Origin: Bolinopsis microptera
Taxonomy: Eukaryota > Ctenophora > Tentaculata > Lobata > Bolinopsidae
DNA: 21,575 bases
Assembly: GCF_026151205.1 (NCBI RefSeq)
Contig: NC_087079.1
Span: 5,787,230 to 5,808,804 of the forward strand
Reading direction: 5' to 3'
This document shows, one piece after another, positions 1-20,291 of this stretch (within the stretch, counting starts at the first letter, position 1; each line of letters begins with the position of its first letter). The position numbers were made by a program, and so were the translations under genes. Below the pieces are notes generated by a model. That model was not told the DNA's origin. It made no database searches and saw nothing but the letters and a program-made list of their open reading frames with translations.

Positions 1-3000
1 GAGCAACAAATTCATCCACCCCGTCCTCCGGTAAAAACTCGGCGCTCTTCCGGAGTCGCTCATTGCGCGTGGAAAAGAACTTGTAGGTAGAATAAAACAG
101 CACATTATCCCCACTATCTGCCGCAGACTGGAGGAACTTAGCGCAGTCCAACGTATCCTCCTTATTCTGCGCGCACGCGTACTGTATAGCTGCCGTCACA
201 TCGTTCTTCTGCAGCAGTGCCTCCACAATACCGCTCGTATCATTCAGCCGCTTTAACATGTCAATACCGAGCAGGAATGCAGGCTCATACGTCTTGTCAA
301 GAGAGAGGAGGAGGCAGGCAAGAGGTGCGGAGTCACCCAGAACCTGGAACTGAACGAGCTGGTGTAGTTTGAAGAGTTGGTTACACCGGATCAGGATCTG
401 GATTATTATCTCGTAGTAGTAGTAGCTGATGCGGAGCTTGTGGAGACGGAGAGAGCGGATGTATTCTACTATAACGGAGATCTTGTAGCTGGGGGACAGC
501 TCTTCTTTGGTGAGGAGGGGGCTGAACACTTCTTCTAACATCTCGTCCTGTCGGGTGGGGCAGGTTAGGTAGTGTTTTGGGGTTCATGAGAGTCAGGAGG
601 TATTTCTAGATATTATGTTATTGGAGACGTTTGCTATTGGAACTGTGAAAAGAGAGAACAAACTAATTATTAAAGGCACTTTAAATAACGCGTTAATGTT
701 TTAAACAGCTGAAATGTTGAAATTACCACAAAACATCCAGCGCACAACACTACGAAGTTCAACAGTACCTGATTGATAAGTACATCGTCAATAACACTGT
801 TCAAGATATCGAATATATCTCCCAGCACACTCAACGGGGTGCTCTGAGTCAAGATAAGAGAGCGCAGAGTGCTGAATATAGTGTTCTTGTAGTTCCGACG
901 GTGGAGCAGCAGTTTTATCAACGAGGGTTTACTGCACACCATGTGCATTGATAGCTTGGAGACGGACAGTTTCAGTTCCCATAGCAACCCTGAAGAGGGG
1001 AGGTGGTTAAGTGTTGTATCAGGTATTATCCTGGGTCGGGTATGATGTGTTGGGTTTAACTGTCGCGCATTTAGCGTCGACATGTTCAGCGTGGGATACT
1101 TTGTTGTTATCCCTCTCTAGGTTCGTATTGTTATTTACTAATGACTAAATGACTATTATTATGTATTATATAGTGGTGACTAATAAAATGTCAGTTTGGA
1201 AAATTTGTCAGCTCAAAACGTGGTGTTCTTTAAAGTTTGTGTGACGTAATAACGCAATAAATAGTTTTATTTTTTCGAGGAGAAGTTGCTCAGTTGCTGT
1301 ACAATAGTAATTCCAACAACAAGTAATCATGACATGCGGCACTATGTATTACAATGCTAACCATTGTATTGAGGGATTCTGTCACACAACGTGACACAAA
1401 CCAACTAATTTCTGTTTTACCTTGTTTAGCGTCAATGATGATTCCAGGCTGAAATACCACCCAAGTGGAGGAATATAGCTCACAAGGTTTCTCCTCGTGG
1501 GTAAACTGACTTATACTCATTGGCTGCAGAATAGGGCGGAATGTCACTACCTGACCTGGTGAGCGGAGAACCGTTAGTTAATTACAAATCTAAGTTGTTT
1601 CTACGTTACATTTTTTTTAAAGTCAAATTTATTCTTATCCTCAGTTTTGAGGTTAAATATAATTCTCACCCTCAGTTTTGGGGTTAAATATAATTCTCAC
1701 CCTCAGTTTTGAGGTTAAATATAATTCTCACCCTCAGTTTTGAGGTTAAATATAATTCTCACCCTCAGTTTTGAGGTTAAAGTCAGGAATCTAATTCTCA
1801 CCCTCAGTTTTGAGGTTAAAGTTAGGAATCTAATTCTCACCCTCAGTTTTGAGATTAAAGTTAGGAATCTAATTCTCACCCTCAGTTTTGAGGTTAAAGT
1901 TAGGAATCCAATTCTCACCCTCAGTTTTGAGGTTTAAGTCAGGAATCTAATTCTCACCCTCAGTTTTGAGATTAAAGTTAGGAATCTAATTCTCACCCTC
2001 AGTTTTGAGGTTAAAGTTAGGAATCTTTAAAGCAGGAGTCCTGGTAGTAGAGAGAGGCAGAACATTATTACTCTCGTTAGAGGTGGGACTCCAGCACACA
2101 TCAAACAACATGCTAGATTTAGAGTTCTGATGGTGGACTACTATCATGTTGTCAACACAGTTCAGGGCGAATCTTCCTGTGATACCTAGCTGCAGGGTAG
2201 CCACCTGGGGTGTAGTATTGTTGAACTATTAGAAGCAGAGATTTATGTTATACCTGTTGTTCAGTCGGGTGAAAAGAGCTACAACAAAATGGGTTCTAAA
2301 TTAAGAGTTGGTAAAAATACCAGAAAAACACTAAAATTATAATCAATATTTTCTGTCAAACAAAACAAATATGTTTAATGATTAAAGAATGATCCGAAGG
2401 TGAATTTGTACATATAATATTACACATTAATTTAATGATAAGAAATCAAAACTTGGTCTCCTAGTACAAGGACAGCGGGTACATACCACTCTCAATAAAC
2501 AATGTCATTAACAAGGTTTCTTATCAGTAAAAGAAGAACTACAAGTCAAATACACTTCCTTTTAAAATTACCATCATCACGTCAACCAATGTTGTTAGAT
2601 CAAATTTATCACAGGATTACATAATGTTAACCTACTAGACGTGGATTGTTTTAATATTCTTTTTTAACTAACAAAAGCAATTACCGTTAAATTAATTTAC
2701 TAGAAAAAAACTGACCTTATTGACGATTTGTTCGGTAGCCAAGACGTACAGACAAATCTCCGTGGTCTTGTAACTCTCCTGGCCGAGCTGAGGACTCTTG
2801 GTTATAGCTAGGAACAGCTTACCGTGCAGAGTTATAATGGACACTTGCCTTTCTAGGAGTTGGGAACGCTGGTTGGGTCCGGCTGGGGGTAGTTCAACCT
2901 GATATAATGGTTTGTTAGTTATAATTAGTTTAGTCATTTAATTCATTTGATGATTAGGTAGTTCATTGATTTAATTATGGTTAGGATAATCCAGATAGTA

Positions 3001-5171
3001 TAGCTGCTGTTCATTGGAAAGTGTTTGTGTGATATTCTATATAATGGAATCCACGTTAACATTTACTAGAGTAAATATGATCGAATCAAATACCCCTACT
3101 CGAAACTCGAAAGTCGTAACTCGACAGAACAGCACATTCTCACGAGTCCCTCTCACATTTTTATTACCGCAATATTACTCTCCCCCACAAACCTATTACC
3201 TAACACACATGTACGGACGTGGAATTTGGGAGTGGTGATGACACCCCCCCCCCCCCCCCCGGCCCCCTTACTTATAGCTAACCTGGAACTTGGGCAGTCT
3301 GTGAATATTACTGGTGCCATGTTGTGGAGTCTTGAAGTAGAAAGGGTGGAGAATGTTACCACACAGAGTAGAGGACACCACCAGAACACAGAACTGGGGC
3401 GAGTACACGAACCAGTTAACGTTTATTGAGTACGATTTGATGTGACGAACTTTGCCTTGTTTTGCTGAAATGGTCAGGTTGGGGTTTGATTATTTAAAAT
3501 TGTTGTTTTATTTATATAATCTGTATTACAAGGTAAGCGGTTGTGAGCTTTTTAACTACAGCTTTGTTCAGGTCTTAAAGCACAATCAATATTTGCTGAA
3601 ACCCTGGGAAAACGAAGTCTTGCCTCAGACATCAGGTCATAACCGCAAGAGCAACAACAGTAATTATAGGGAAGTGCATCAGGATTACCACAGCAGTGCG
3701 CACTTACAGTGCATAGTGTACAGTGCATAGTGTACAGTGCACATTGCACAACTTACCATTAATCTGATAAAACTCAATAGCCTGATGATTGATGAAGACT
3801 ATCTCGTTCTGGCAGGTCCAGTTAAATCCTATTATATTCCCTGACCCTCTTCTGCAACACTGACTGAACTCCGTATCTGGATAATATCTTGTAACATATT
3901 ATTTAACATATAACATATTATTAATATTCAACATATTATTTAACATGACGTGTGAAGCTGTGAAATAAAAAGTATAGAATTGGGGACCATCGTCATTTTC
4001 ACTGTTTCTCTAAATTTGGCATTACTTACAAAAAACCCACAACACGTTTTTTTAAATGTCACATTTATCAAACTATACAAAACACTCACTTTCCTGGATG
4101 TTAAGGAAGTCTACAGACTGGTTGCTCCTCTGCACGGCTAATATCCGGTGGTCTATAGAGTACTTGATACTGATGATGTTCACTGCGTTATCTATCGTCA
4201 GTGTGTGTTCGGTGTGATCCTTCTGTGGGGGTACAAAGTGTTGGTTAGGTAAGTAAATTCAAACCCCCGTGCTACGCGGTAGTTTTACAGTTTATCAATA
4301 TTGAATATTATATAATCAAGAGTTTTTATTCACGTCGCAAGCATAATTTGTCAATATTAAAAAGTGCCGCGAATTTTGTGGTTCGTTTTTAGACTGATAA
4401 TTAAGGAAAAAAAGTGCGCACCGCGGTGGAGAAAATGCAAGGTTTTTCAAGTCGAAATCACGTGACTTACTGCGTTGTAGATAGTAACGAGGTCACGTGA
4501 CTTACCGCGTTGTAGATAGTAACGAGGTCACGTGACTTACCGCGTTATAGTTAGTAACGAGGTCACGTGACTTACCGCGTTATAGATAGTAAAGAAATTA
4601 CGTGACTTACCGCGTTGTAGATAGTAACGAGGTCACGTGACTTACCGCGTTGTAGATAGTAACGAGGTCACGTGACTTACCGCATTGTAGATTGTAACGA
4701 GGTCACATGACTTACTGCGTTGTAGATAGTAACGAGGTCACGTGACTTACCGCATTGTAGATTGTAACGAGGTCACATGACTTACCGCGTTATAGTTAGT
4801 AACGAGGTCACGTGACTTACCGCGTTATAGATAGTAAAGAAATTACGTGACTTACCGCGTTGTAGATAGTAACGAGGTCACGTGACTTACCGCGTTGTAG
4901 ATAGTAACGAGGTCACGTGACTTACCGCATTGTAGATTGTAACGAGGTCACATGACTTACTGCGTTGTAGATAGTAACGAGGTCACGTGACTTACCGCGT
5001 TGTAGATAGTAACGAGGTCACATGACTTACCGCATTATAGATAGTAACGAGGTCTCCCGACATGGCGAATATCTCCTGGTTAGTCTCATCGTAGAACACA
5101 GGAGTAGTCCGGGTTACCGGGGGAAACTTTACTGGGTTATCTGAGAGGTAGAGCAGCCCGCTCCCCGACAT
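1..5171 (-). CDS. RMC1: RMC1 orthologue (Mic1 family, regulator of MON1-CCZ1), 3' end outside window
   Basis: I read nine exons on the minus strand: 5171-5031, 4222-4090, 3876-3757, 3464-3283, 2898-2716, 2204-2072, 1555-1421, 989-769 and 547-1. Every boundary is GT-AG and all phases agree (0,1,1,0,0,1,1,0). The roughly 598 residues seen match vertebrate RMC1 from end to end. Examples are VFYDETNQEIFA near the N-terminus, KYSIDHRILAVQRSNQSVDF, IEFYQINA, NVNWFVYSPQ, GRFALNCVDNMIVVHHQ, PCELYSSTWVVFQPGIII, and in the C-terminal Mic1 solenoid SVIVEYIRSL, PLACLLLSL and GIDMLKRLN. Human RMC1 is about 657 aa, so some 50-60 C-terminal residues lie beyond position 1. In known animals RMC1 (C18orf8) joins MON1-CCZ1, the Rab7 exchange factor, on late endosomes and lysosomes and supports autophagy and cholesterol export. 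The start at 5171 is chosen because MSGSGLLYLSDNPVKF aligns with the human N-terminus. The exon 6 donor (AGA|GTAATA) is the least certain boundary. Confidence 0.93.
1630..2036. repeat. 31-bp then 39-bp hairpin minisatellite in RMC1 intron 6
   Basis: The core CCTCAGTTTTGAGG, a self-complementary 5-bp stem with a GTTT loop, recurs at 1639, 1670, 1701, 1732 and 1763 with a 31-bp period. It then recurs at 1802, 1841, 1880, 1919, 1958 and 1997 with a 39-bp period after gain of an 8-bp block. On the minus (transcribed) strand each unit contains GAGGGTGAGA, a passable donor sequence. The open frames across it exist only because 39 is a multiple of three, and they are not treated as genes. Confidence 0.93.
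3241..3261 (-). repeat. Homopolymer C run (G run in the RMC1 transcript) near the exon 4 donor
   Basis: About 18 consecutive C residues on the plus strand give a G tract in the RMC1 pre-mRNA, beginning about 20 nt downstream of the exon 4 donor at 3282. Intronic G runs near donors are known splicing enhancers in animals. The run length is likely polymorphic and prone to sequencing error. Confidence 0.8.
3700..3745. repeat. Short AGTGCATAGTGTAC direct repeats in RMC1 intron 3
   Basis: The 14-bp motif cagtgcatagtgta occurs tandemly just downstream (minus strand) of the exon 3 donor at 3756. An additional GTAAGT (plus acttac near 3709) lies about 45 nt beyond the true donor. Confidence 0.6.
4455..5055 (-). 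repeat. 35-bp tandem array copying the RMC1 exon 1 donor junction (intron 1)
   Basis: Seventeen units with an exact 35-bp period fill most of the exon-proximal part of RMC1 intron 1. Read on the minus strand, one unit is 24 nt equal or nearly equal to the last 24 nt of exon 1, followed by GTAAGTCACGT from the start of the intron. Every unit therefore carries a GTAAGT donor; on the plus strand this is acttac. The copy at 5030-5025 is the one that joins exon 1 in frame to exon 2. Unit centres on the plus strand fall at 4491, 4526, 4561 and so on to 5016. Ten units contain exact GTCACGTGAC, four contain GTCACATGAC, two ATTACGTGAC and one ATCACGTGAC. Confidence 0.95.
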
Positions 5172-5356
5172 CACCTGATGTCACGTGGGTTTCTGATGAC
5201 GTCACGTGGGATCCTGATGACGTCACGTGGGTTCCTGATGACGTCACGTGGGTTTCTGATCACGTCACGTGGGTTTCTGATCAGGTCACGTGGGTTTCTG
5301 ATCACGTCACGTGGGGTTTTTTGAGGATGTAACGTGGAGGTTTTTGAGGATTTCAC
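5171..5356 (-). other. Candidate upstream ORF with RNPRDVI heptad repeats, overlapping the RMC1 start
   Basis: Because the promoter-proximal repeat is 21 bp long, it stays open on the coding strand and encodes seven tandem RNPRDVI-like heptads in a 61-codon ORF that begins MKSSKTSTLHP. Its stop TGA overlaps the RMC1 ATG in the string TGATG (5173-5169). This is the geometry of termination-reinitiation uORFs. Whether the transcript begins upstream of 5356 is unknown, so the ORF may be untranscribed promoter DNA. The openness itself follows from the period being a multiple of three. Confidence 0.35.
5176..5320 (-). promoter_or_regulatory. 21-bp E-box/CRE tandem array directly upstream of the RMC1 start codon
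   Basis: Seven copies of GTCACGTGGG start at 5180, 5201, 5222, 5243, 5264, 5285 and 5306, with an exact 21-bp spacing (two helical turns). Each holds a CACGTG E-box. Copies at 5201, 5222 and 5243 are preceded by TGAC, giving TGACGTCACGTG, an overlapping CRE (TGACGTCA) and E-box. Two more degenerate copies follow to about 5360. The array begins about 5 nt upstream of the RMC1 ATG, so it is either core promoter or 5' UTR. bHLH-ZIP factors (USF, MITF/TFE) and bZIP factors are the known binders of such sites; binding here is inferred. Confidence 0.7.
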
Positions 5357-5360
5357 GTAA

Positions 5361-6211
5361 CGTTAAAACGTCACCGGTTCAAGTCACGGCCGGAGACATT
5401 TTGGCTTTTCTGCATGATAGAAATTATAATAGGACTTGCCAATTAATATCAGTGTTAAAAATGTTCAAATCTCAGAACAGGATTGAACGAAAGTTGAGAG
5501 ATTGAATGTTTATTTAGTGATCAACTATGAGTTAACACAATTCAATTTACCCGACGAATGTTTATAAGTACTCGTAAATGATAACTGACAACTTGAGACG
5601 GTAACTTTCATCAAATGGAATGAAAAGTGGTAAATAAAATTCAGATGGAATGTTTGGCTATAAGTACTACATCAAATTCGGAGGAAATAAATAGCTAGAA
5701 AATCCAATTATCAATAAGTTAGACATCATTTAGCTTAATTTAAATTAAATCATAGAATAATAGCAAGGTAAAAGCTCATCACAGCTTTGAAAGGAGTTCA
5801 AATGGTGCCAGCGATCCTCAAAATATAGCTATATTGCTGGCTTTGTTATAAAAACAGGCTTCGTTATCAAAAACAGGCTTCGTTATCAAAACAGGCTTCA
5901 TTTCCTCTACAATTACTTCATTATGTTCAAAATAGAAGTTTAATCATACCGATTGAAATTTTGTACAAATGCTAAAATATCTGAAAACTTTATAAACTCA
6001 AATACCAAGTAGAGTCCTCAAGGACCTTAACATAAAACTAATTTCTTTAGTTAGCTAGTTAGTATGGGACCTGGTCACAGGTATTTTTCTAACTAACGAT
6101 CCCGAAAAAATAAATTAATTTTCCCATCGAGTATTTCCGAATAGTTTTCAAGTATCCGAACTGTTCTTAATAACTTTAAATTAATTAGATTTATCCAGCT
6201 CTCTTATTAGC
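5361..6211. other. Intergenic region between the PDHB 3' end and the RMC1 promoter array
   Basis: I see no gene in this AT-rich stretch of about 850 bp. It must contain the PDHB 3' UTR and polyadenylation region and the distal RMC1 promoter. It includes a small imperfect tandem repeat near 5842-5900, three copies of an aaaacaggcttcgttatc unit. The one open frame across 5311-5505 on the plus strand has no recognisable content. Confidence 0.6.
5842..5900. repeat. Three-copy repeat of an AACAGGCTTC unit
   Basis: The string aacaggcttc occurs near 5853, 5872 and 5889 with spacers cgttatcaaa. It is a short local duplication of about 17-20 bp with no coding or regulatory motif that I recognise. Confidence 0.75.
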
Positions 6212-9200
6212 TTAGATACCGAGAACTTTCTTTACAGAGTTGACAACATTGGACTCTTTAGGGAAAGTAAGTTCCTCGAGTGATTTAGCGTAAGGGACCG
6301 GTATATCCGCTCCAGTACACCGTAATGGGCCTGAATCCAGATAGTTGAACGCTGGTCCTGAACAGATAATTACTAATTAATTAATTAATTAATAATAATT
6401 TTTTATTAATTAATTGATCAGTTGATTATCTGAATTCAGATAGTTGAACGGTGGTCCTGGACAGATAATTACTAATTAATTAATTAATTAATAATAAGTT
6501 CATTATTAATTAATTGATCAGTTGATTATCTGAAATCTGAATTCAGATAGTTGGACGCTGGTCCTGAACAGATAATTGTTAATTAATTTATTGATTAATT
6601 AGTTGCAATATTGATTAATTGATTATCTGATTATCTGATTATCTGAATTCAGATAGTTGAACGCTTGTACTGTCATTAAGATGAGGATTAAGTTTCAGTC
6701 AGAAGAAATATATATTTTTCTATTTTTAAGGTCCGAGAACTTAAAAATGTTCTCTTTTTGAGGGCTTTTTATCATATTAGGATACTTTAAATAATGTTGT
6801 TATGCTAAGTATTCACTAAAATCTTGCTACTAAAATCACGTACTTTAGGCAACATTATCTCCATCATTGACTGGTACTTCAGTCTTGTGGATTTGACAAA
6901 ACAGTCATTAAAACGACAAAATAATAGACTTTTTAAGACGGACCTAAATATATCGGACCCGCTGGATTTTGTCGTTTAAAATATAAATTAAGTACGTACC
7001 CTCAATAATTCCTGCTATAATCTCACTACCCACACCACCAAAAGGCCAGCCGTACTCCACTGTGACCAAGTTGTTAGTCTTCATAACACTCTGGGTTACT
7101 GTATTCATATCCAGGGGGCGGATTGAGCGCAGGTTTACTACCTGAACAGGAGAGAGATTAGTTTAGAATCACTTTTACATTGGTTATTGTTTAAGTTGTG
7201 TTAGCTTGTTAGTTAATTGTTCTTCAGAAAATGTATTCTAATCTTCCAAGCTAATATAAATTGTTATTTATATTTTACGATGTTCATGCTAACTACCAAA
7301 AACCGAGTTTTATCACACCCTAAGAGTATAAAAGAGTATGATGCTACTCATATCGAATATCAACATTCAACATACATATTATTACTTAAAAGTTTACAAA
7401 AGTGAAATACAATCCATCACATATAATTTTGCAGGATTCAAAATACCTCACACTCGACTCCCATGCCAGCCAGCTCCTCAGCAGCCGTTAGAGCCGTTTG
7501 AACACCGATTGAGTGAGCCACTATTGTACAATGTGTTCCTGGGAGATAGAACACGTCATGTTACATATTTCATAATTACCTCTAATTATGATCACATAAT
7601 TATGACGCAACGTTTATTGTTTCCTAATCGAATCATTACCTTCTCGCTCAATCTTAGCCTTGCCCAGAGGGATCTGAAAGTTAGGATCCATAGCCTCGTC
7701 GCTCATATCAAATGTGGTACCATACATAATCTCATTCTCCAAGCAGACAGAGGGGTTAGGGTCCATGATGCAGGCTTTGAGGAGACCTTTAGCGTCCTCA
7801 GCGGAGTACGGGGACACTACCTGCCGGGGAGGGGTTAAAAGTGAGGGGGCAGAGGGTGGGAGCAGAGGCAGAGAATGAGGCAGAAGGGGGCGGAGGGAGG
7901 GGACAGAGCCCAGAGGGGGGAGCAGGGGAAGAGAATGAGGCAGAAGGGGGCGGAGGGAGGGGATAGAGCACAGAGGGGGAGCAGGTAGTTTAAGCTGTTT
8001 ATTGTCCACTATTATTATGTATTTTACAAAACTGGTCATTCTTGTTAATCAAGTAAATTTACTATACTTTTCAGAAATCTGCCAGGGAGGGAGGGGTTAA
8101 AGTGGGGGCAACTTTAACACGTGACCAAATCACAACAAGAGTTTGTTACCAGCATCACGGACAAAGGATAGGACAAAGAAGACACTCTCTGCCACACTCA
8201 TAGAGCCTGGCAAACTCTAATCACAGGTTAGTCTGGCAGTGGCTCACACTCTGTTGATATCTCTTTAATGAGACTTGATTTGAGGCCTCTCAACTTCCCT
8301 AGTTGAGTGTGTCCCACAACCAAGCACATTGCCTAGAAGTCCTTCATTGGACATAAGTGGCGTGTAGCTCTATAAACCAAAACCAAAACCAAAATAACCA
8401 GTACCACTAATTACAAAATCTCTAAATTAATGGTCTGATTAGTAAAGCTGTAAACTATAATTAAATAGCACTTACCTTGAGTCCAGGTACACTCCCATAC
8501 CACGATGCAAAACACTGGGAATGTTGGGCTCCCACCCCAGATGCAGGTCCGTTAGGTCCTCTGAAAGTTATCGGGCACTTCATCTGGGAGGAGGGGGTTA
8601 GTGTGTGATCACCTGACCAAGTCACGTGATCATTTTTCATATATTTTGTATTACAAACTCATGTTACAATAGATCGCGGCAAAAATGACAGTTGGGCTAA
8701 ACGTAACAAACGAAAATCAAGGCTAAAAATACCCCACTTTTTATAAGGCATCAAGGCATGGTTGTTACCCGACAGCCAATATTTCAGCCGTGAGCTATAA
8801 ACCCTACAGATGTTACCAATACGAGCCATGTAAATGTGGACTGTGACCACTTCAGAATATCATCATATATTATTATGAAATTATCCTCATAATATATCAC
8901 GAAATAATGATCGACTTTTAAAATTATAACGCAGCTGAAAGTGTAACTCTACACTGTCCCCTTTACATATTATTATTAAAGTCAGCAAACCGCGCTACTA
9001 ACAATCAGAATCTACAGATATCCAACACACACACACACACGTATACACTATAAAGAGTTATGAAGGAGCACCTACATTTTGTCAAAGAATATGTATTTTA
9101 AAAAGTGCTCAATCTTGAGTATTTCCTGTAGTTATAATGCAATGTACACCTCTGTGTGTGTAACATGATATGGTGTAACATGTTATTGTGTGTAGTACAG

Positions 9201-10348
9201 GTTTGTTACTATCCTGGTGTTATGTTAACAATAATGCAGTGTATTACATAATATTATTATTATTACGCGAGTGATTGTTGGCAGAGTGCCAACTAACCAC
9301 TTAGGACTTGTCAACATTTTTAAAATAACATTGGTTATTTAAGAGTTCAGCACCAAACCTATTAAAATAACGGTAGCTACATTACTATATATATATATAC
9401 AGAGGAGGACAGTTAGAATATATGCATAATTGCATACGGCACTGCAGTTATCATATTATACATAACATACCATATTAAATACATATAATAGCATACCATG
9501 GTCCATGCATAGTAATGAAACATAATATGCAACAAAACAGCTAGTTCAGATTTACAGTGAAATACACATTCTTGTAACATTTAAAGTATAAAGTTGACAA
9601 TCTCTACCACAAATTAAAATGCAGTTTACAGTCTCAACCATATCATTATAATAATATAACAAAACTTAAATTGTGTTCATTAACTCCAACTAACCACTCC
9701 GGCGGACATGTAATGGGATTTAGCTGCAGAGTTAACGATGTGGTCAATAGCTTGGAGGGCAAAGTTGAACGTCATGAACTCACAGATAGGTCTCAAGCCG
9801 TTCTGAAACAGGCAACTGTATTGAATATCAATATTAATTGTTAAATAAAATATAGACTGGACTGGGGGAAGCTTGAAACTAAATATATACATTTAATAAT
9901 GCCCTATACTAAATGTTGTAATTGATGTAGAATGATTTGTTAGCTTACCAGGCCTGCGCCGACAGCAAATCCAGCAAAACCCATCTGAAATGGAAGTCTA
10001 GTTGATAATAAGTTAGGAATAAAAAAGGTCAAAGAATATGAAATTAACTTTTACCACCATTTATCTGGCATCTACAATTCAGTAGATTACACAAACCTCT
10101 GTGATGGGCATGTCAATAACTCTCTTATCTCCATGCTTCCTCCACAAGCCACGCGTCACTTTGTACGCGCCATCATACTGAGCCACCTCTTCACCCATCA
10201 CAAAAGCAGTCTCATCCTGCGTGATTGCTTCGTCCATGGCCATGTTAAGCGCATCTCTGACAGCTAGCTTTTGTACGAGTAGAGGCTGGGATGTGCTGAT
10301 GCATCTGGAACCTACTGTCCCCAAGGACCTGGATATCCTTGATAGCAT
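6212..10348 (-). CDS. PDHB: Pyruvate dehydrogenase E1 component subunit beta, mitochondrial
   Basis: Eight exons on the minus strand: 10348-10097, 9984-9949, 9802-9695, 8583-8476, 7820-7640, 7538-7447, 7141-7000 and 6357-6212. All introns are GT-AG, phases agree, and the joined frame gives 354 aa and a TAA stop; human PDHB has 359. The first 26 or so residues are Arg/Ser-rich without acids ([10 protein letters not shown]), a mitochondrial presequence. Family landmarks in order are [17 protein letters not shown] (thiamine diphosphate side, with the conserved Glu), [106 protein letters not shown] and [10 protein letters not shown]. With E1 alpha it forms the heterotetramer that decarboxylates pyruvate in the mitochondrial matrix. 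Exon 2 is a 36-nt micro-exon. The weakest junction is exon 3/4, where the donor could be GGA|GTG or GTG|GTTAGT; the latter keeps frame. Confidence 0.96.
6331..6680 (-). repeat. Four-copy repeat of the PDHB exon 8 acceptor junction (intron 7)
   Basis: A segment of about 100 bp containing the 3' splice site and the first 27 or so nt of exon 8 is repeated head to tail. Copies begin at 6331 (the true exon), 6430, 6537 and 6643, so spacings are 99, 107 and 106 bp. On the minus strand copies 2 and 3 keep an acceptor (CTGTCCAG and CTGTTCAG) followed by GACCASCGTYCAACTATC. Copy 4 is decayed (TGACAGTACAAGCG). Between copies lie TTAA-rich tracts ending in TTGATCAGTTGATTATCTGA. Confidence 0.93.
7824..7990. 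repeat. 60-bp purine-rich duplication in PDHB intron 4
   Basis: Bases 7861-7920 and 7921-7980 are nearly identical 60-bp units (agcag, then gagaatgaggcagaaggg and onward). The whole stretch is almost pure A/G on the plus strand, which is a long polypyrimidine run in the PDHB transcript just upstream of the exon 5 acceptor at 7821. Homopurine-homopyrimidine mirror tracts of this kind can adopt triplex DNA. It also gives an unusually long pyrimidine tract for splicing. Confidence 0.85.
8079..8110 (-). repeat. Second copy of the PDHB exon 5 acceptor tract
   Basis: On the minus strand, CACTTTAACCCC, a CTCCCT tract and GGCAG closely match the true exon 5 acceptor tract (CACTTTTAACCCCTCC then CCGGCAG, 7821-7850), 258 bp further upstream in intron 4. 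The copy retains pyrimidines and a terminal AG, so it could act as a decoy acceptor. No exon sequence follows it. Confidence 0.7.
8155..8400 (+). mobile_element. Possible retroelement (SINE or LINE 3' end) with AAAACC tail
   Basis: Between about 8155 and 8370 the sequence is more GC-rich than the surrounding intron. It terminates in tandem accaaa/aaaacc repeats (8377-8396), like the short-repeat tails of SINEs and some LINEs. I do not recognise the family and found no clear target-site duplication or tRNA-type boxes, so this is a suggestion from composition and tail only. Confidence 0.35.
8606..8632. repeat. Hairpin with E-box near the PDHB exon 4 acceptor
   Basis: TGATCACCTGAC, loop CAA, then GTCACGTGATCA forms a 12-bp stem with a single mismatch. 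It lies 20-50 nt upstream of the exon 4 acceptor (minus strand), next to a branch-point-like ACTAAC. It contains CACGTG, echoing the E-box motifs of the RMC1 arrays. Confidence 0.7.
9023..9041. repeat. CA microsatellite
   Basis: A short run of about eight AC dinucleotides in PDHB intron 3. The rest of this intron (8584-9694) is AT-rich and shows no gene. Confidence 0.9.
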
Positions 10349-10756
10349 GCCTAGGTTAACTTCTGTGTTATTCTGTTATTCGGTTATTTTTATTATTCTG
10401 TTATTTTCGTATTATATATGTCACATTAATTTACTGAGTATTTATTAGCTTGGCCTGGGTTGGAATTTTCTAAGAGACTCCTCTTTGAGTTCGAGTTAGC
10501 AAATATTGATTTAACCAAATCGAATCATAATATGATTACAATAGCAGTAACCTTTGCCATCACTGTTGTTGCATCATGTGCAATTGGCATTTAATCTATG
10601 TCTAAGATTTAAATTTATAAGACTCAATCTGAATATTTTAGATGATATAAATTATACAAAATATAATTAAACAACCGAAATGACTGCACAATATAGTAAA
10701 GTTAGCTCTAATGTTGCTTATCTTATTGAATATTGATAATGGTTTTAAAGTAATAT
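10349..10756. other. Intergenic spacer: PDHB promoter side and NERD-helicase gene 3' side
   Basis: This spacer of about 400 bp between two same-strand genes must hold the PDHB 5' UTR/promoter and the 3' end of the upstream gene. A minus-strand AATAAA (plus tttatt, 10441-10446) is a possible poly(A) signal, about 310 bp past the stop. No TATA box or other confident element was identified. Confidence 0.5.
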
Positions 10757-13663
10757 CTAATCATGCCGTATAATATTAGCAAAAGGTTTCAGTTTGCTCA
10801 ATAAATCAGTCATACTAATTGCAGCTTCGCCGCTTCTCCCAAATCCAGTAAGAAGAAAAAGAAAGCATTTCACTCGTGCTCTTGATATTAATATGTAGAG
10901 TCGGGAAAAATCGTCTCTATCCAAATGCAAATTACTCTCGCTGTCCATGTACATTTCGTGTAAAGCAAAAACAACTGGCCACTCATTTGAGTAATTATTG
11001 CGAAAGTAATGAAGGCGTTTTGACCCAAAAATGTCCCGTATATCAATTGTCTTTAGACTGTGTAATATCCCTATGTCTTTGTTCTGATCAAGAATATTTG
11101 CGTTACATATTCGATCTATTTCTTTATAGACAACTTCAGAGATACCATCAGATTCTTTAAAGACATGAATGTCAATTAGAGGGCCATGGATAAAATGACC
11201 ACATTCATTTGGTGGTAAGACATCAGTCAAATCAGAATTGTTTATAAATTTTAATTCATTCACACTATAATACCCTCTTACAAAGTCTCTTATTACCGAT
11301 AATACGGCAGATAATTCGAAAGTATTCCTCATATTTTTGGTGAGATTCACCCACTTGCACTGCTCTTGATCTATTTTGATTTCTTCAAGTATACATAATA
11401 TATGATTAATGGGTGGATAGAGAGAATATGAATATAATGAACAAACCTGCACAATATCACAGGCCACCCAGACCGTGTTTGCAAGAGATAACTGTATCAG
11501 TGTGCTGGTTAACATTGGAATATCAAAATTTTCATATCTTTCAATACCAAAATAAGACTGGTAGTCGTCAATGAACAAAGAGCAATGTTGTTGGCAGCCA
11601 ACTATTTTAATAAGCCACACTTTTCTATACATTTGAATTGATGCATCATCTAATACAATAACAGCAACTTGATAAGACTGGTGACACCTGTATATAATGT
11701 CACATAAAGCAGAAGCCGCATATTGTTCATCTCGACCCTTCCAATACCAGGAGTCAGGAAATATCATCTTATACTTGATCTTAGCACTCTCAAGAAGACT
11801 CAAGTTCTGATTACAGTAGTTGTTGCAATTATCAACAAAATGGAATAATGCAATTTTATGCTTGTCGTTTGATAGGGCCAACTTTAATATCTTCCCCATA
11901 ATGACAACTGATTTCCCTGTTCCTGCTGGGCCATTAATCCATAAGAACTGTTTTTCCGAGTTAAGAGCACTGAGCTGTTCCACAGTCAAGTTCTTGAGTC
12001 CAAAATGTTCTTTAATCATTGGAGGGGTCTCCGATGCAACACCAGGATTGGGATCTCGATTTTTGCTAATGAACGTAAAATCACCACCTTTGAGATATTT
12101 GTCTATGTTTGTTATTGTCTGTCCCATGCTACATTTCAGTTTATCACACTTGTTCTTTTCTGTGCACCATAATGCCAATAAAATATATGTATCTCTCAGA
12201 GGACTTTGAGTAGTCTCACCAGGTACACTGATGTGATCCATCCACCATTTGGGAAAATCATTAAGTTCCTCTTTAAATATTACTGTGGAAACCAGATCCT
12301 TTTCAACAAACAACTTAGGGAGCTTTGCCTTACTCAAATTAGGACATGCTGTATAACAATGAACAACCACATCTTTGTTAATGCCTTTTATCAGATCAAG
12401 AGTCCTCAGTCTCTGCTCAAAAGAATTATGTAAGATTGTTGTCAAAGCACTAAGCTGGTCAGCTGCTACGTCGAGATGATCTTCAACAGTTATATTCTTG
12501 ACTTCTATGATTGTTATATAATTGCTTCCAATTATTAAAAAATCACACTCCTCCTCCGGCTCCTTATTCCTTATTCTACAAATTTCACCAATTTTCTTCT
12601 TTGATTTATGGTTATCAACAAATATCTGGTAATCTCCATGATTGTATACCATACCATGAATCACGATGACGTTGTCATCCAACCTTTCCAATACCCTGTA
12701 CACTGTTACTTCAGCAGTGTAGTCCTCTTGCCTATGTTTGCTTCTCTTATTGCTATCGCTCAAATCTGTTCCCTCTGGATACTTGTCAATGTAAGGTGAT
12801 GAGGGAGCTGGTGGGATCATTAGTGGACGCCCACATTTAAAGTCTAACTCTAGACTTTGATACACTTCCTTACCTTCCTTTTCTAACTGATCAATCCTTT
12901 TCTCTCCTGAAATAGAGGAAGCATATTACCAATGTGTTATTTATGAAATATATCTATATCTTAATTTGAAGTTTCTTTCTGTATGTACAGCAGCCCCCAT
13001 GCAAATTAGAAAGTTACATAGTTACACAGTGGAAACACATATATATGTACAACAACAACAACATGCATGCACAGTACATTATCCAACATTTTCACAGGAT
13101 TGTGATATCAGTTTTGTTTTTACGACGTTGTGTTCAATGCAAGCTACATTTTGATGGGCTGTGTCTTCGGTTGTGATGGATATTTTTGGATGTGATACAA
13201 AATTATTATTTAAGAATGCTATTGGCTTCCTCCCTGTGAAATAGGGCTCAACAAACAAAATGTGAGCCAAAAACTCTGATTAACTGCAAACCCTGATTTA
13301 CCATAACTTCTCCAACTCTTCTCTCTGCAAGTTTTGTAATCTGTAAGGTCTCTAGTCTTTCACGTCAAGGAAATGTTCAAATACAATCAACAAGGCATGT
13401 GAACCATTTCTGGCCATTTTCCAGTTTGACGGTAGTAGCCCAATTCCCATGACAAGCAGGTGGAGACCACAACTATAAGAACTGAACACAATACTCTAAG
13501 TCGGGTCTTACTATAGTTTTATAAACATTTCTCATAACGTTAATTTCTCTTACAATGAGATTCCTTATAACCCATGCAATCATATAATCATAAAAAATTT
13601 AATTAGATATCCAGGCAACTCACCAGGCGTTTTTTTCCTTTTGCCAGAAGTTGAATTGCTCAT
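10757..13663 (-). CDS. NERD nuclease-like domain plus superfamily 1 helicase protein (729 aa)
   Basis: Two exons: 13663-13624 (MSNSTSGKRKKTPG, donor CCTG|GTGAGT) and 12906-10757 (acceptor ATTTCAG). Together they give 2190 nt, 729 aa plus stop. The N-terminus is basic (KRKK), a likely nuclear signal. Residues about 75-175 look like a NERD (nuclease-related) domain: CDFLIIG at about 134-140 supplies the Asp, and IIEVKN (Glu148, Lys150) the E-x-K core. A superfamily 1 helicase follows: Q-like LTVEQLSAL (about 320), Walker A GPAGTGKS (339-346), Walker B FIDDYQ (458-463), motif III WVACDIVQ (493-500), LTKNMRN (535-541) and LYILISRAR (683-691). All key motifs are intact, so the protein is probably functional. 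NERD-helicase fusions are known in bacteria, archaea and scattered eukaryotes; the biological role of this one is unknown to me. The single large coding exon suggests a retro- or horizontally acquired origin followed by intron gain, but that is inference. A resemblance to the DUF2075/Schlafen-type helicase group is possible. Confidence 0.88.
12907..13623 (-). other. Intron 1 of the NERD-helicase gene
   Basis: This 717-bp intron separates the 13-codon first exon from the rest. It contains a decayed LINE fragment (13290-13530), a small CAA trinucleotide run near 13050, and otherwise unremarkable AT-rich sequence. Confidence 0.8.
13290..13530 (-). pseudogene. LINE (non-LTR) reverse-transcriptase C-terminal remnant
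   Basis: One minus-strand frame reads KTIVRPDLEYCVQFL, a stop, LWSP, then further on ERLETLQITKLAERRVGE, interrupted by three stops in all. The pairing of VRPxLEYCVQFWSP with a downstream ERLxxLxLxxLxxRR block is characteristic of the region after the catalytic core in CR1/L2/jockey-type LINE reverse transcriptases. It is a dead fragment of about 80 codons inside an intron, in the same orientation as the host gene. The internal segment between the two blocks is diverged or rearranged. Confidence 0.75.
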
Positions 13664-14164
13664 TGTGCAGTGGGAATCAGAGGACAAAGTAAGTTACATT
13701 TTACTACATCAGGCTTCAGGAAATTCCATTTAACTTCATTTCTAAGAAGATTAGCTTTGAGGTTTCATAGATTTGTTAACATACATTATTTGTTAATACC
13801 GCTAAATAGGGAGAATTGTTATCAATAATACCAAGTCAAACTCTGTGGGATAAAGGGTTGTAATAAAATAGATTTATAACAAGGTTAGATAACTCTCTAG
13901 TTATAACTCTCAGATGTTCTTGGTCGATCAGTGATATGAGTGTGTATGATTATTACGCTGAGTGATCGATTTTGGGCGCTTTTTAACCATTTGTTGTAAT
14001 GTTTTTAGATACTAAATATCTAAATTTATAAAATTTTTTATCGGAATGAATTAATTGATATTTAATAATTTATTCGGTAGGTTTATCTGGTATTGATATT
14101 GATTATATTGATATTGTTATTATTGAACGAAGCTAACTCTAGACATAGTTAATACTACTTCTTT
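13664..14164. other. Upstream region of the NERD-helicase gene
   Basis: About 500 bp of AT-rich DNA that should contain the promoter of the minus-strand NERD-helicase gene. I see no convincing TATA box or E-box. A 7-bp inverted pair TCGATCA/TGATCGA flanks about 35 bp near 13925-13970. Confidence 0.4.
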
Positions 14165-14367
14165 TAAGAAAGGGACTTGGAGTATAAACGACCAAGTTTG
14201 CATAAATTTCTATCCACCCGTACCCAAGAACTCAGGAGGCAAAGGTGGGTGCGTAAACTTTTGGTCTGCACTCTCCGATCCTGTATCACCCTGGATTCTT
14301 CTCGACGTATCTTTGTAAAAGGTATATACCTTCTAGTCAATCTCTTGCTACTCCAAGTCCCCTAAGA
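14165..14367. mobile_element. Short inverted-repeat element (MITE-like) or structured RNA gene
   Basis: GGGACTTGGAGTA at 14172-14184 is matched by its exact reverse complement TACTCCAAGTCCC at 14349-14361. TAAGA flanks both ends (14165-14169 and 14363-14367), a possible 5-bp target-site duplication. This defines an element of about 193 bp. Inside it, further stems are possible: GACCAAGTTT with AAACTTTTGGTC, CACCC with GGGTG, and palindromic AAGGTATATACCTT. A nonautonomous DNA transposon is the simplest reading. A folded non-coding RNA closed by a 13-bp terminal helix is the alternative. The open frame inside has no ATG of its own and no known domain. Confidence 0.55.
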
Positions 14368-15890
14368 TATCTGATCTAAAGTTCGTGCTAGTTATATATA
14401 TATGAAATATATTTTTGTCTGCTTTAATTGATACTAAATAAAATTGTTGTTTTCTTGAAATTGTTGTTTTCTTTAGTTTTTAGATGATTTATGTTATTTG
14501 CATGCTCATGTTATATAAAATATTCAAACAATATACACATAATATAGCAATGACCCTATATAAAAATTCTGTAAAAATGGTACAAATTTAAAAAACTGCT
14601 CATGTTATTCACATAACCATGTGTCTACGCGTACTGCGTGACGCGCTTGTTTCACAAGTAGAATATTATATTATTAATTTGCCGCCTTCGGCGGTCGCGC
14701 GCTACTGCAAGCGAGAGGGCTCTGGTTAGAGCAACTCATGTTATAATAGAGTTTGAAGCATTGTTGCGTTTTGGGGCTTTGTAATACTATGACTGCATTG
14801 CTTTGCATTTGAATTTCTGATGTTATTGATTTTCAGTGCTATGTAACCTGGCAGTAACGTTGAAAAGGACTTTGAGGGGGTCTGTAGTCCCCACCATAGT
14901 ATGTTTGTGTTTCACTGATTTGTAAACTGAAGACGTAAATACAGTAGGTGAGGACATTATATTAGAATTTTTGGAATGTAATTATATTGCTTACAAATAC
15001 AATTCAGTCACACTGTAGGCTCAATATTGTTAACAGTCATAATTTTGTGGGTCAAGTTTTTGTAGTTAAATCAGTAATGCATCATGTTTTAACTCCCAAA
15101 CCATCTGATAAACCGAGTTTCGACCTCTTTGATTAATTAAAAAGAATTACTTTCAGTTACTGCCAAAACTTTCTTCTACAAATCCTCTACAATGATGCCG
15201 AACGCTTGAACTTGAAGATTGAGTTAATCTTCAAGATTTTGCTTCGATCAAAGAATTTAAGATGACAATTCCAGTTCATAATGTTACACTGTACACGGGA
15301 TTTAGAAAGATAAACATTATATATTATAATCCGTTGTTTCAATATTGTGTTTTCTTTGTTAATCACTAACTGATCGATGATCTAATAAGGTTTTATTTTT
15401 AACTTAAACTGTGATCTGAGAGAAGCTTTATCAGTGTGCGTGCAGTACTGCGCCGTGACGTAATAGGACAAAAAGTACCTGGGCCTGCCACCAATGGTCA
15501 ACAACAAAAGCGCGGCGTACTGCGCGCGACCAACTATTTCGCCCGTATAATATATGGAACAAACATTTTACGAGTATCATACCCGTTAAGGGGGTAGTTT
15601 CTGAAAATTCGGATGTCCGGGGATTTTGATTCAAGATGTTGGATGTTAATCCTTTGTATTGCAGCTGGGTGAATAGTGGTAAGTAGTGCATCGCGCTACA
15701 AGTCCCATTTATTTCAACTCTTTGACACATAATACTTTGTAAGTTTAGATCGACCTGTATTTTGAACGAGTACTTGAAAATGTACCTGTGCTAAAATAGT
15801 CCGACACTTAGAAAAAAAAAGGGGGGGACCCCCAACCCTTACCTGGGGAGTAGTGTAAGAGGATTTTTTCGAGCTCCGTTTACCCCTAAA
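14368..15890. other. Gene-poor intergenic region with GC-rich islets and a perfect hairpin
   Basis: No protein gene is supported here. Two GC-rich patches in AT-rich DNA (14625-14735 and 15431-15545) share GGTCGCGCGC in opposite orientation and variants of gtactgcg, so they may be ends of a decayed repeat. A perfect hairpin with a 10-bp stem and 5-nt loop lies at 15211-15235. A minus-strand open frame of 99 codons (15431-15730) has no domain I recognise and its codons run through the GC-rich patch. Confidence 0.5.
15211..15235. repeat. Perfect 10-bp stem hairpin
   Basis: CTTGAAGATT, loop GAGTT, then AATCTTCAAG. It stands alone in intergenic DNA with no neighbouring gene to assign it to. Confidence 0.8.
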
Positions 15891-15895
15891 ATTGG

Positions 15896-15976
15896 GGCAC
15901 ATTTAGCTTTAGCACAGTTGACTAATCTGCCACATTTTAGCCAGAGGTTACAAGTTCGAATCCCAGTCGGAGTTGT
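15896..15976 (+). mobile_element. tRNA-derived SINE head or tRNA pseudogene
   Basis: An RNA polymerase III A-box-like TAGCACAGTTGA (15910-15921) is followed about 30 nt later by a B box AGTTCGAATCC (15953-15963), the spacing of a tRNA. Between them CCAGAGGTTAC resembles the anticodon-arm and variable-loop segment of a tRNA. The T-arm stem (ACAAG/CCCAG) does not pair, so this is not a working tRNA. Sequence continues without a 3' acceptor complement, consistent with a SINE head. No tail or target-site duplication was fixed. Confidence 0.6.
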
Positions 15977-16728
15977 TCTCCAATGTGATTATATTATTAT
16001 GGTACACATTTTAACCTAGTTTAACCCATATTCAAGCAATCTAACCCTACATAATACATTCATCACACAGCAGAAGTCGTTAAATGTATAGTCATAGTGT
16101 ACACGTTCACGTACAATTACATCAGTTGTCTATCAACAGCGTTAACATCTGACACGCGGCGACCTCTGTAAAGTGTGCTGATAAAGTGAGATAATGAATA
16201 ATGTGCTTTCTAAATTTAACTAGAGTGTACCGCGTTTCAGGACAACACCTGCAACTTTGCTTACACTATCATTCAGCGTTCAGCTGTGTGTTGCGTAAAT
16301 TTTGACTCTGCTTCAGCTTTAATTGTTATTATCTTTAACTTTAAGGTTAAGTTTTTAATTCTTTTACCGTAGTCGGTCACGTAACACTGACTGTTTGATA
16401 TGAAATCTAATTTATAAAGAGCACTTTCAGAATGGTTACGCAGCTCAAGAATACTACGTCATTGTATAGCCATAAGCCTTGTACAGCATAGTTACAGTAA
16501 CATCTGTGCAATGTATTTGACACAAATATCTTGTCAAGAACTGGTCTAGATATTTTCTACTTTCTAAAATTATATCATATAATGAATACTGAATGATAAT
16601 TATAATGTATTATTTAAATAAGTTATAATGTAGACAAGGAAACACACGTTTAGATTTTTGAAGATAACTTAAACAAAACTATATTCAATAACTCTATATC
16701 ATATATATTATATATGTCCAAATACTTA
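15977..16728. other. AT-rich intergenic region
   Basis: About 750 bp with no gene or repeat I can support. It should include the 3' UTR of the minus-strand zinc-finger gene, although I found no canonical AATAAA close to its stop. Confidence 0.5.
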
Positions 16729-17460: not shown

Positions 17461-19650
17461 TTCAATGCTTCAATACTCAATGTTGTTAATTTTTTGGTCC
17501 TATATTATTCGATGTTGTCCGAATGTTGCTTAGTGTTGCTTAATGACCAATGTTGATTAATGTTGTTCGATGTTGTTAGATGTTTCTCAATATTGTTCAT
17601 TTGGTCGTATATTATTCAATGTTGCTCAAATGTTGTTCAAATGTTGCTAAAATGCTGCTTAAATGCTGCTTAAATGTTGCTTAAATGTTGCTTAAATGTT
17701 TCCTAATATTGTTAAATGTTGCCTAAATGTTGTTAAACATTGCTGAATATTGCTGAGTGTTGTTCAAATGATGCCCAAATGTTGCTTAGTGTTGCTTAAT
17801 GACCAATGTTGATTAATGTTGTTCGATGTTGCTAGATGTTTCTCAATATTGTTCATTTGGTCGTATATTATTCAATGTTGCTCAAATGTTGTTCAAATGT
17901 TGCTAAAACGCTGCTTAAATGCTGCTTAAATGTTGCTTAAATGTTGCTCAAATTAAATGTTGTTTCACTGTTGCTTAAATGTTGCTTAAATGTTTCCTAA
18001 TATTGTTAAATGTTGCCTAAATGTTGTTAAACATTGTTGAATATTGCTGAGTGTTGTTCAAATGTTGCCCAAATGTTGCTTAGTGTTGCTTAATGACCAA
18101 TGTTGATTAATGTTGTTTGATGTTGCTAGATGTTTCTCAATATTGTTCATTTGGTCGTATATAATTCGATGTTGCCCAAATGTTGCTAAGTGTTGCTTAA
18201 TGACCAATATTGATTAATGTTGTTCGATGTTGCTAAATGTTTCTCAATATTGTTCGTATACTATTCAATGTTGCTCAAATGTTGTTCAAATGTTGCTAAA
18301 ATGCTGCTTAAATGCTGCTTAAATGTTGCTTAAATGTTGCTCAAATTAAATGTTGTTTAAATGTTGCTTAAATGTTGCTTAAATGTTTCCTAATATTGTT
18401 AAATGTTGCCTAAATGTTGTTAAACATTGTTGAATATTGCTGAGTGTTGTTCAAATGTTGCCCAAATGTTGCTTAGTGTTGCTTAATGACCAATGTTGAT
18501 TAATGTTGTTTGATGTTGCTAGATGTTTCTCAATATTGTTCATTTGGTCGTATATAATTCGATGTTGCCCAAATGTTGCTAAGTGTTGCTTAATGACCAA
18601 TATTGATTAATGTTGTTCGATGTTGCTAAATGTTTCTCAATATTGTTCGTATACTATTCAATGTTGCTCAAATGTTGTTCAAATGTTGCTAAAATGCTGC
18701 TTAAATGCTGCTTAAATGTTGCTTAAATGTTGCTCAAATTAAATGTTGTTTAAATGTTGCTTAAATGTTGCTTAAATGTTTCCTAATATTGTTAAATGTT
18801 GCCTAAATGTTGTTAAACATTGCTGAATATTGCTGAGTGTTGTTCAAATGTTGCTTAGTGTTGCTTAATGACCAATGTTGATTAATGTTGTTCGATGTTG
18901 CTAGATGTTTCTCAATATTATTCATTTGGTCGTATATTATTCGATGTTGCCCAAATGTTGCTTAGTGTTGCTTAATGACCAATGTTGATTAATGTTGTTC
19001 GATGTTGCTAGATGTTTCTCAATATTGTTCATTTGGTCGTATATTATTCAATGTTGCTCAAATGTTGTTCAAATGTTGCTAAAATGCTGCTTAAATGCTG
19101 CTTAAATGTTGCTTAAATGTTGCTCAAATTAAATGTTGTTTCACTGTTGTTTAAATGTTGCTTAAATGTTTCCTAATATTGTTAAATGTTGCCTAAATGT
19201 TGTTAAACATTGCTGAATATTGCTGAGTGTTGTTCAAATGATGCCCAAATGTTGCTTCGTGTTGCTTAATGACCAATGTTAATTAATGTTGTTCGATGTT
19301 GCTAGATGTTTCTCAATATTGTTCATTTGGTCGTATATAATTCGATGTTGCCCAAATGTTGCTTAGTGTTGCTTAATGACCAATGTTGATTAATGTTGTT
19401 CGATGTTGCTAGATGTTTCTCAATATTGTTCATTTGGTCGTATATTATTCAATGTTGCTCAAATGTTGTTCAAATGTTGCTTAAATACTGCTTAAATGCT
19501 GCTTAAATGTTGCTTAAATGTTGCTTAAATGTTGCTCAAATTAAATGTTGTTTAAATGTTGCTTAAATGTTGCTTAAATGTTTCCTAATATTGTTAAATG
19601 TTGCTTAAATGTTGTTAAACATTGCTGAATATTGCTGAGTGTTGTTCAAA
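17461..19650 (+). repeat. Left arm of giant inverted repeat: AAATGTTGCTT satellite array
   Basis: The basic motif is an 11-bp unit, TAAATGTTGCT, with variants. It is organised into a higher-order unit of roughly 380-400 bp, seen from the recurrence of GTTCATTTGGTCGTATA near 18145, 18539, 18921 and 19321, each alternating with a second block of about 107 bp. About five to six higher-order units are present. No open frame of interest runs through it. The outermost repeats begin within about 100 bp of the zinc-finger start codon. Confidence 0.93.
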
Positions 19651-20291
19651 TGTTGCTCAAATGTTAGTAATGCTGTCTAATGTTACCTAATATCGTTAAA
19701 TATTGTCAAATGTTGTCGAATGTTGCTCAACGTTACTCACTGATGTATAATCTTGCCTAATGTTGTTCAATGGTGCTAAATAGTTCTCAAATATTTTACT
19801 TATTTATTAAACCTGATGAGCGACTATCAAAATATTCATAAGGGAAAAACGATTTATGAATAGTAGCACCATAGGCCCTCAAGAACTGATCCAGGGAAGT
19901 TCCCGCTGCCAAATAATTCGAATTTTTTTGGACTGCCTTATTTAACTTGAACGGTGACAAATTTTAAATTAATTTAAATTTATCACAGATCAGCAGCATT
20001 GAATAATATACGACCAAAAATGAATAATATTGATAAATATCTAGACCAGGCCTGACAAGAGCTTCAATTTGAGTCAAATACATTGCACAGCTGCTACCGT
20101 GACTATTCTGTACTACGTCTATGGTTATATTATACAATGACGTATTATTCTTGAGGCTGTAAAGTAAGTTCATGTCGTAACTTGAGTTCATGTCGTAACT
20201 TGAGTAGTCATCTATAATAGTGTTACTAAAAATAGATTGAAGCACTGAAAAATGGGTGTATTTGCGCTGGATAGAGTCAAAATTTTAGCCT
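19651..20291. other. Loop of the giant inverted repeat
   Basis: This unpaired centre of about 640 bp has three parts. From 19651 to 19800 are decayed AATGTTG-like units in left-arm orientation. From 19995 to 20045 is one degenerate unit already in right-arm orientation (gaataatatacgaccaaa). The rest is unique sequence. A minus-strand open frame of 93 codons (20245-19964) begins after a good acceptor-like TTTTTCAG but lacks an initial ATG. It contains a duplicated SSYDMN segment (from an 18-bp direct repeat near 20166-20203) and no domain I recognise. It might be an exon or chance. Confidence 0.6.

Follow-up and report, generated by a model that had tools for sequence, protein, structure and literature searches.

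Tandem copies of an exon–intron junction in RMC1 of the ctenophore Bolinopsis microptera: most likely an unstable minisatellite of the kind described as mirages in amphioxus

Why should the first intron of a gene present its own splice donor 17 times in series? This question is raised by a 21.6-kb stretch of the Bolinopsis microptera genome (the window; positions below are counted from its first base), in which a coding junction on the reverse strand is followed by repeated copies of itself. The gene concerned is RMC1: the Pfam domain RMC1_N is matched across the join of exons 1 and 2 (3.4e-17) and RMC1_C by the C-terminal exon (7.3e-56), and the nearest PDB chains are 8c7g_A, a “Mic1 domain-containing protein” (2.7e-9), and 9l0d_C, the “Regulator of MON1-CCZ1 complex” (3.7e-9). 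Exon 1 (5031–5171, reverse strand) contributes 47 codons in phase 0 and ends at the GTAAGT of donor 1 (5025–5030, reverse strand); exon 2 (4090–4222, reverse strand) follows an acceptor AG at 4224–4223, its end having been set by eye at GTGAGT.

A preliminary description of this DNA had claimed a 17-fold array of the 35-bp donor junction in intron 1, and the array, running on the reverse strand from 5054 to 4460, proved to be real. All 17 units join the last 24 nt of exon 1 to the first 11 nt of intron 1, unit 1 being the genuine exon 1 junction, and all 17 carry an intact GTAAGT. In the window copy the unit length is exactly 35 bp throughout, with zero indels, and Tandem Repeats Finder (TRF) gives the array a score of 991 with 91% matches, well past the chance level. 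Ten of the 35 columns of the unit vary, leaving the donor hexamer unaffected; three of these ten are accounted for by C-to-T or G-to-A changes at CpG, which is ordinary decay. Units 10–15 match units 3–8 except for one base, indicating that a six-unit block was duplicated whole. The intron sequence that follows unit 17 is GATTTCGACTTG, and the GATTTCG found directly there is an imperfect short match to the GACCTCG of exon 1 at the unit start.

When each of the 17 donors was joined in silico to exon 2, the frame was open from donor 1 only: donor 2 gave a frame-shifted product with a stop at codon 67, and donors 3–17 a stop at codon 60 (the exon 2 piece included 4 nt of the following intron, with no bearing on these stops). 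The TAA said to be met in frame on reading through donor 1 is present at 4992–4994 (reverse strand), and the expectation that distal donors would yield frameshifted or truncated products is correct for these joins, stops being reached from every one of donors 2–17. The statement that only the exon-proximal donor keeps the RMC1 frame is right in effect, but not by length, as donors 4, 7, 10, 13 and 16 also preserve the frame and yet are closed by the same TAA. These features could be read as a donor-competition device, in which inner donors would capture splicing, the early-stop products would be destroyed and the array length would set the output of RMC1. GTAAGT is kept in all 16 extra donors and a premature stop is predicted from each; moreover, in laboratory work with duplicated strong donors the acceptor-nearest one is often preferred, which makes the use of inner donors plausible. 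However, any array of 35-bp units at this coding junction would show identical frame arithmetic without having a function, and for the proposed tuning by nonsense-mediated decay we found no positive evidence; we regard such a device as highly unlikely.

The repeats also invite a reading as a cluster of transcription-factor sites, where an E-box factor would bind in the promoter region of this late-endosome gene. The RMC1 array contains GTCACGTGAC, which we take to be a CLEAR/TFEB site, 10 times, and directly upstream of the RMC1 start lies a second array of 21-bp units (6.7 copies; 5176–5315, reverse strand) with CACGTGAC, in which CACGTG occurs 7 times. Against this, the core column varies, with C changed to T in 4 of the 17 units, so that the core is not kept in every copy; two more boundaries read CACGTAA; and CACGTG is common genome-wide, occurring 59 times in 162 kb of other loci versus 20 expected from base composition. 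We hold it very improbable that the repeats serve as an E-box cluster. The 21-bp array additionally has TGACGTCA three times, and the RMC1 start sits within GTGATGTC, a string close to the GTGACGTC of the 21-bp unit; to judge by these letters, the RMC1 ATG may itself derive from the repeat unit.

Further junctions are copied within the window. A second donor-junction array of RMC1 (1631–2026, reverse strand) repeats the end of a later exon followed by GTGAGAATTAG, in units of 39 bp and then about 31 bp; CTGAGG/GTGAG is found in 10 of its copies, and the 11th and last has an altered GT. In the neighboring gene PDHB, identified by a PDB match (4.3e-67), the acceptor of the last intron is copied in an array of about 100 bp × 3.3 (6331–6672, reverse strand) that overlaps the last exon (6212–6357, reverse strand); its copies take in about 27 nt of that exon together with the acceptor junction, and four junction copies can be made out by eye, the outermost being partial. 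The donor junction of what we read as the fourth RMC1 exon (3245–3387, reverse strand) is single in the window. A pyrimidine-rich array of 30/60-bp units at 7848–7985 stops 27 bp short of a PDHB acceptor and is an expanded polypyrimidine tract, not a copied junction.

A search of the genome (264.65 Mb, 232 contigs) for further copies showed that the RMC1 array and its surroundings recur on this contig at a distance of 85 kb, window positions 1–13790 being collinear with this second copy. The better pieces are 90–96% identical; those of the RMC1 half show 79–85% identity, and their letters resemble uncorrected, homopolymer-like long-read errors. The published assembly underwent gap closing and haplotig purging (PMC10232365), which makes a left-over haplotype likely at this place. 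Thus, the second copy is probably the other haplotype, though it could be a paralogue. RMC1 intron 1 has 17 units in the window, whereas the second copy has 9, including one of 36 bp, a difference between alleles if the two copies are not paralogues. Likewise, the array of 21-bp units in front of exon 1 counts 6.7 versus 3.5 copies, the PDHB acceptor junction 4 versus 2, and the RMC1 exon 4 donor junction 1 versus about 11 (143-bp unit), so that length differs for all three junction arrays that can be compared between the locus copies; the second RMC1 donor array is also present there, in letters too full of errors for a count. This inequality speaks against the donor-competition device, in which array length would be the setting of RMC1 output.

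The quality of the second copy bears on a further rival, namely that long-read assembly inflated or collapsed the copy number. The RMC1-carrying half of that copy is full of homopolymer-like errors, and the gap closing and purging steps of the published assembly (PMC10232365) could have contributed; the window array, however, is clean, ungapped and carries structured variants, a 9-unit version of the same junction array stands in the second copy, and similar clean arrays are found on other chromosomes. An artefact is accordingly extremely unlikely as the source of the array, although exact lengths may still be wrong.

The remainder of the window holds other features. An interspersed repeat of about 510 bp (13965–14473), mostly 97–99% identical at many genomic sites, begins just beyond the end of the match to the second locus copy. 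Parts of 15849–16700 are found elsewhere as inverted pairs about 5–6 kb apart, and next to them are large satellite blocks (17618–21575) with 393-bp and 401-bp periods in opposite orientation; the whole resembles a DNA element whose ends are rich in repeats. A 722-aa open frame at 10757–12925 matches Pfam NPHP3_N (1e-5), with matches to STAND NTPase, NERD and UvrD below the cut-off. A search of the whole window against Rfam gave no match.

Junction arrays are not confined to this locus. We examined a sample that was not picked by eye, made up of the exon matches of the kinesin motor and myosin head families: 117 of 120 motor matches (28 loci, 99 kb; two with the motor in one frame and one beyond the fetched stretches were excluded) and 73 of 75 head matches (19 loci, 63 kb; two C11 matches resembling second copies of others were excluded). 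At these 190 exon matches, a few of which sit in second copies, we verified by eye 11 junction-copying arrays, that is, about 3% of the 380 match edges. Donor junctions are copied at loci L030, L038 (33 bp × 52), L046, L047, L049, L050 (35 bp × 25) and L072 (40 bp × 22), and acceptor junctions at L034, L046, L050 and L051. One further junction array lies in a CDK-like gene, read by eye (Pfam kinase match 0.0014, below the curated cut-off). Clean arrays of this sort exist on other chromosomes as well. Unit lengths are 35, 39, 143, 33, 53, 53, 38, 49, 35 and 40 bp for donor arrays and 49, 21, 41, 49, about 99 (PDHB) and 41 bp for acceptor arrays, those outside RMC1 intron 1 spanning 21–143 bp. 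The unit length is divisible by three in 4 of the 16 arrays read (taking PDHB as 99), near the expected third, and in-frame use of inner sites is therefore not favored. Boundary arrays of so many unit sizes at unrelated genes also argue against the donor-competition device.

In the 52-copy kinesin donor array (L038, 572–2317), units begin at differing exon positions and GTAAGT is followed by AGGCTATAAAC or TATAAAC; this pattern of letters suggests that more than one duplication event may have struck one junction. Paired kinesin exons with identical scores occur at C13, 4.98/5.07 Mb (L028/L029), and at C11, 11.30/11.34 Mb (L031/L053), the C11 pair being inverted; like the window locus, these pairs are either retained haplotypes or recent duplications.

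Three borderline arrays, in which the splice site is copied with less than 9 nt of exon, were kept outside the count of 11: a donor with about 8 nt of exon (L032, 1341–1456), a GTGAG donor with at most 3 nt (L044, 547–833) and a TTGTAG acceptor with about 3 nt (L038, 2787–5697). Splice sites are thus amplified also without the exon part. On reading the letters, L044 3641–3705 (AT-rich), L048, L055, L057, L069, L059 (twice), L062, L035 and L038 7056–7120 were found not to be junction copies; nine TRF arrays on exon matches were read and rejected. The GTAAGT arrays of L011 and L018 could not be placed at a donor junction, and L003 is an unrelated E-box minisatellite.

The inner donors show hardly any decay. 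In the parts of seven arrays that were aligned, 131 of 131 copies retain GT; the last, degenerate unit of the second donor array of RMC1, which lies beyond the aligned part, has lost it. Per-site mismatches amount to 2/790 in donor hexamers and 94/4011 elsewhere (Fisher P 1e-5; the hexamer of L047 was set one base early). As copies within an array are not independent, this value has to be set beside the count by column, where six arrays together have 2 variable donor columns, with 5.45 expected (P 0.055). The near-absence of decay is consistent with weak constraint, or else with arrays that are young, homogenised and free of selective pressure; homogenisation explains the low donor variation as well.

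Are junctions, then, preferred places of tandem duplication? We compared the counts with a null model in which seeds are distributed uniformly over ancestral intron plus junction. Of 32 kinesin arrays whose unit measures 20 bp or more, 8 straddle a junction versus 4.0 expected (P 0.027); other settings for kinesins only gave 5/25 (P 0.096), 7/21 (P 0.021), 5/18 (P 0.052) and 7/34 (P 0.11). With kinesins and myosins together, the corresponding figures were 9 of 44 by TRF versus 3.6 expected (P 0.0065); if 18 or 24 nt of exon were required, 6 of 44 (P 0.037 and 0.004, respectively); and where the unit had to reach 30 bp, 8 of 25 versus 2.6 (P 0.0017), a further setting giving 5 of 16 versus 1.05 (P 0.002). 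Myosins alone were non-significant in the main setting (1 of 12 versus 0.55 expected, P 0.44). Across settings the expectation ranged over 2.6–5.6 of 44 for units of at least 20 bp (observed 9, or 8 without an array that failed by eye) and over 2.1–4.0 for units of at least 30 bp (observed 8 of 25). Over 18 settings in all, 2.1–5.6 were expected and P lay between 0.0004 and 0.08, reaching up to 0.17 without L044. Junction straddling was therefore 1.4 to 3.8 times the uniform-seeding expectation (P 0.0004 to 0.17 by setting); since the settings were not fixed beforehand, this moderate excess is suggestive only.

Counting patterns over the genome did not serve as proof of donor amplification. 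Three GTAAGT at 14–44 nt spacing gave 17,090 matches (reversed pattern, 3,124), and the same-composition control GTTAGA 11,667 (its reverse, 2,958); three AGGTAAGT gave 1,380 matches versus 12, with one 32-bp satellite occupying the first 51 places among the matches listed. These counts look to be driven by a few long arrays. Junction arrays may largely be a by-product of a minisatellite-rich genome, TRF repeats covering 16.5% of the kinesin loci. As a tentative and rather doubtful generalization, exon/intron junctions could be hotspots of tandem duplication here, with a few percent of splice junctions affected, arrays varying between haplotypes and the spliceosome picking out the outermost site from a series of up to about 50 that are identical; the duplications may be triggered by the junction as such, for instance through an RNA-DNA hybrid formed during transcription or a U1 particle bound there.

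The closest published counterpart is found in amphioxus, where “mirages” are described in Adh3 and the globin genes BflGb6 and BflGb9 (PMC3087553), and also in TnC (troponin C) and PGBD5 (PMC3902484). These are minisatellite-like tandem copies of 5' or 3' boundaries, many but not all of which retain splice signals, with copy numbers that differ between two haplotypes; according to the authors they leave regular splicing undisturbed (PMC3087553, PMC3902484), which is a further point against a donor-competition device in RMC1. Their units measure 10–72 bp and 150–160 bp (PMC3087553), and somatic instability is given as a feature of the Adh3 mirage. As in amphioxus, the RMC1 units span the exon/intron boundary (24 + 11 nt, 17 units), are of minisatellite size (35 bp) and retain the splice signal (GTAAGT in 17 of 17); the haplotype length variation of amphioxus would have its likeness in the 17 versus 9 units of RMC1, should the two locus copies be alleles. 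What sets the present case apart from those accounts is the phylum (Ctenophora), the 17 copies of a 35-bp unit, the presence of several arrays in RMC1 and its neighbor PDHB, and the occurrence in kinesin and myosin genes too; normal splicing is reported for amphioxus mirages and presumed for the RMC1 array.

Two other phenomena are related more loosely. Human segmental duplications contain boundary internal tandem repeats with units of about 30 bp on average and variable copy number; there the comparison was made among paralogues, and the repeats were linked to altered exons or the appearance of new introns (PMC2812944); unlike these, the RMC1 copies lie inside an existing intron, with the coding frame predicted to be unchanged. 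Intron gain via tandem duplication of AG/GT segments is discussed in PMC3087553 (see also PMC4974935 and PMC2891723); it shares with RMC1 the tandem duplication of splice signals, but here an existing intron was lengthened and no new one arose. The portion of the literature searched held no report of boundary minisatellites in ctenophores, which does not prove their absence. The RMC1 array most likely belongs to the amphioxus-type mirage kind, a name that we met only for amphioxus in the sources seen.

Taken together, we consider it very probable that the RMC1 array is a passive, unstable minisatellite of the mirage type. A segment across the exon 1/intron 1 donor would have been tandemly duplicated, the first duplication probably arising by slippage or end-joining at the short imperfect repeats GACCTCG (exon) and GATTTCG (intron); the array would then have expanded and contracted by unequal exchange, including the copying of the six-unit block. 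The frame needs the most upstream copy of a donor and the most downstream copy of an acceptor, so that the outermost site should be used, as computed for the frame of RMC1 intron 1. In RMC1 this would be the first-transcribed donor 1, presumably to the exclusion of the others, though inner donors may be used leakily. Provided that the outermost donor is used, growth of the array would be tolerated because it is intronic. This answers to the preliminary description's option of a neutral minisatellite seeded on a junction, which gains support from the unequal lengths of the two locus copies (17 versus 9), from the boundary arrays at unrelated genes, from the 4 of 16 units that are multiples of three and from the amphioxus equivalents, reported to be spliced normally.

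If junction arrays are as common as in our sample (11 at 190 exon matches), they amount to a natural experiment on splice-site choice: identical donors stand in series, the same exon end precedes each, and the genes concerned need correct splicing. RNA reads would reveal whether the first-transcribed or the acceptor-nearest donor wins. The arrays also bear on the growth of introns and on differences in intron length between haplotypes, and they extend the mirage phenomenon beyond amphioxus to a ctenophore.
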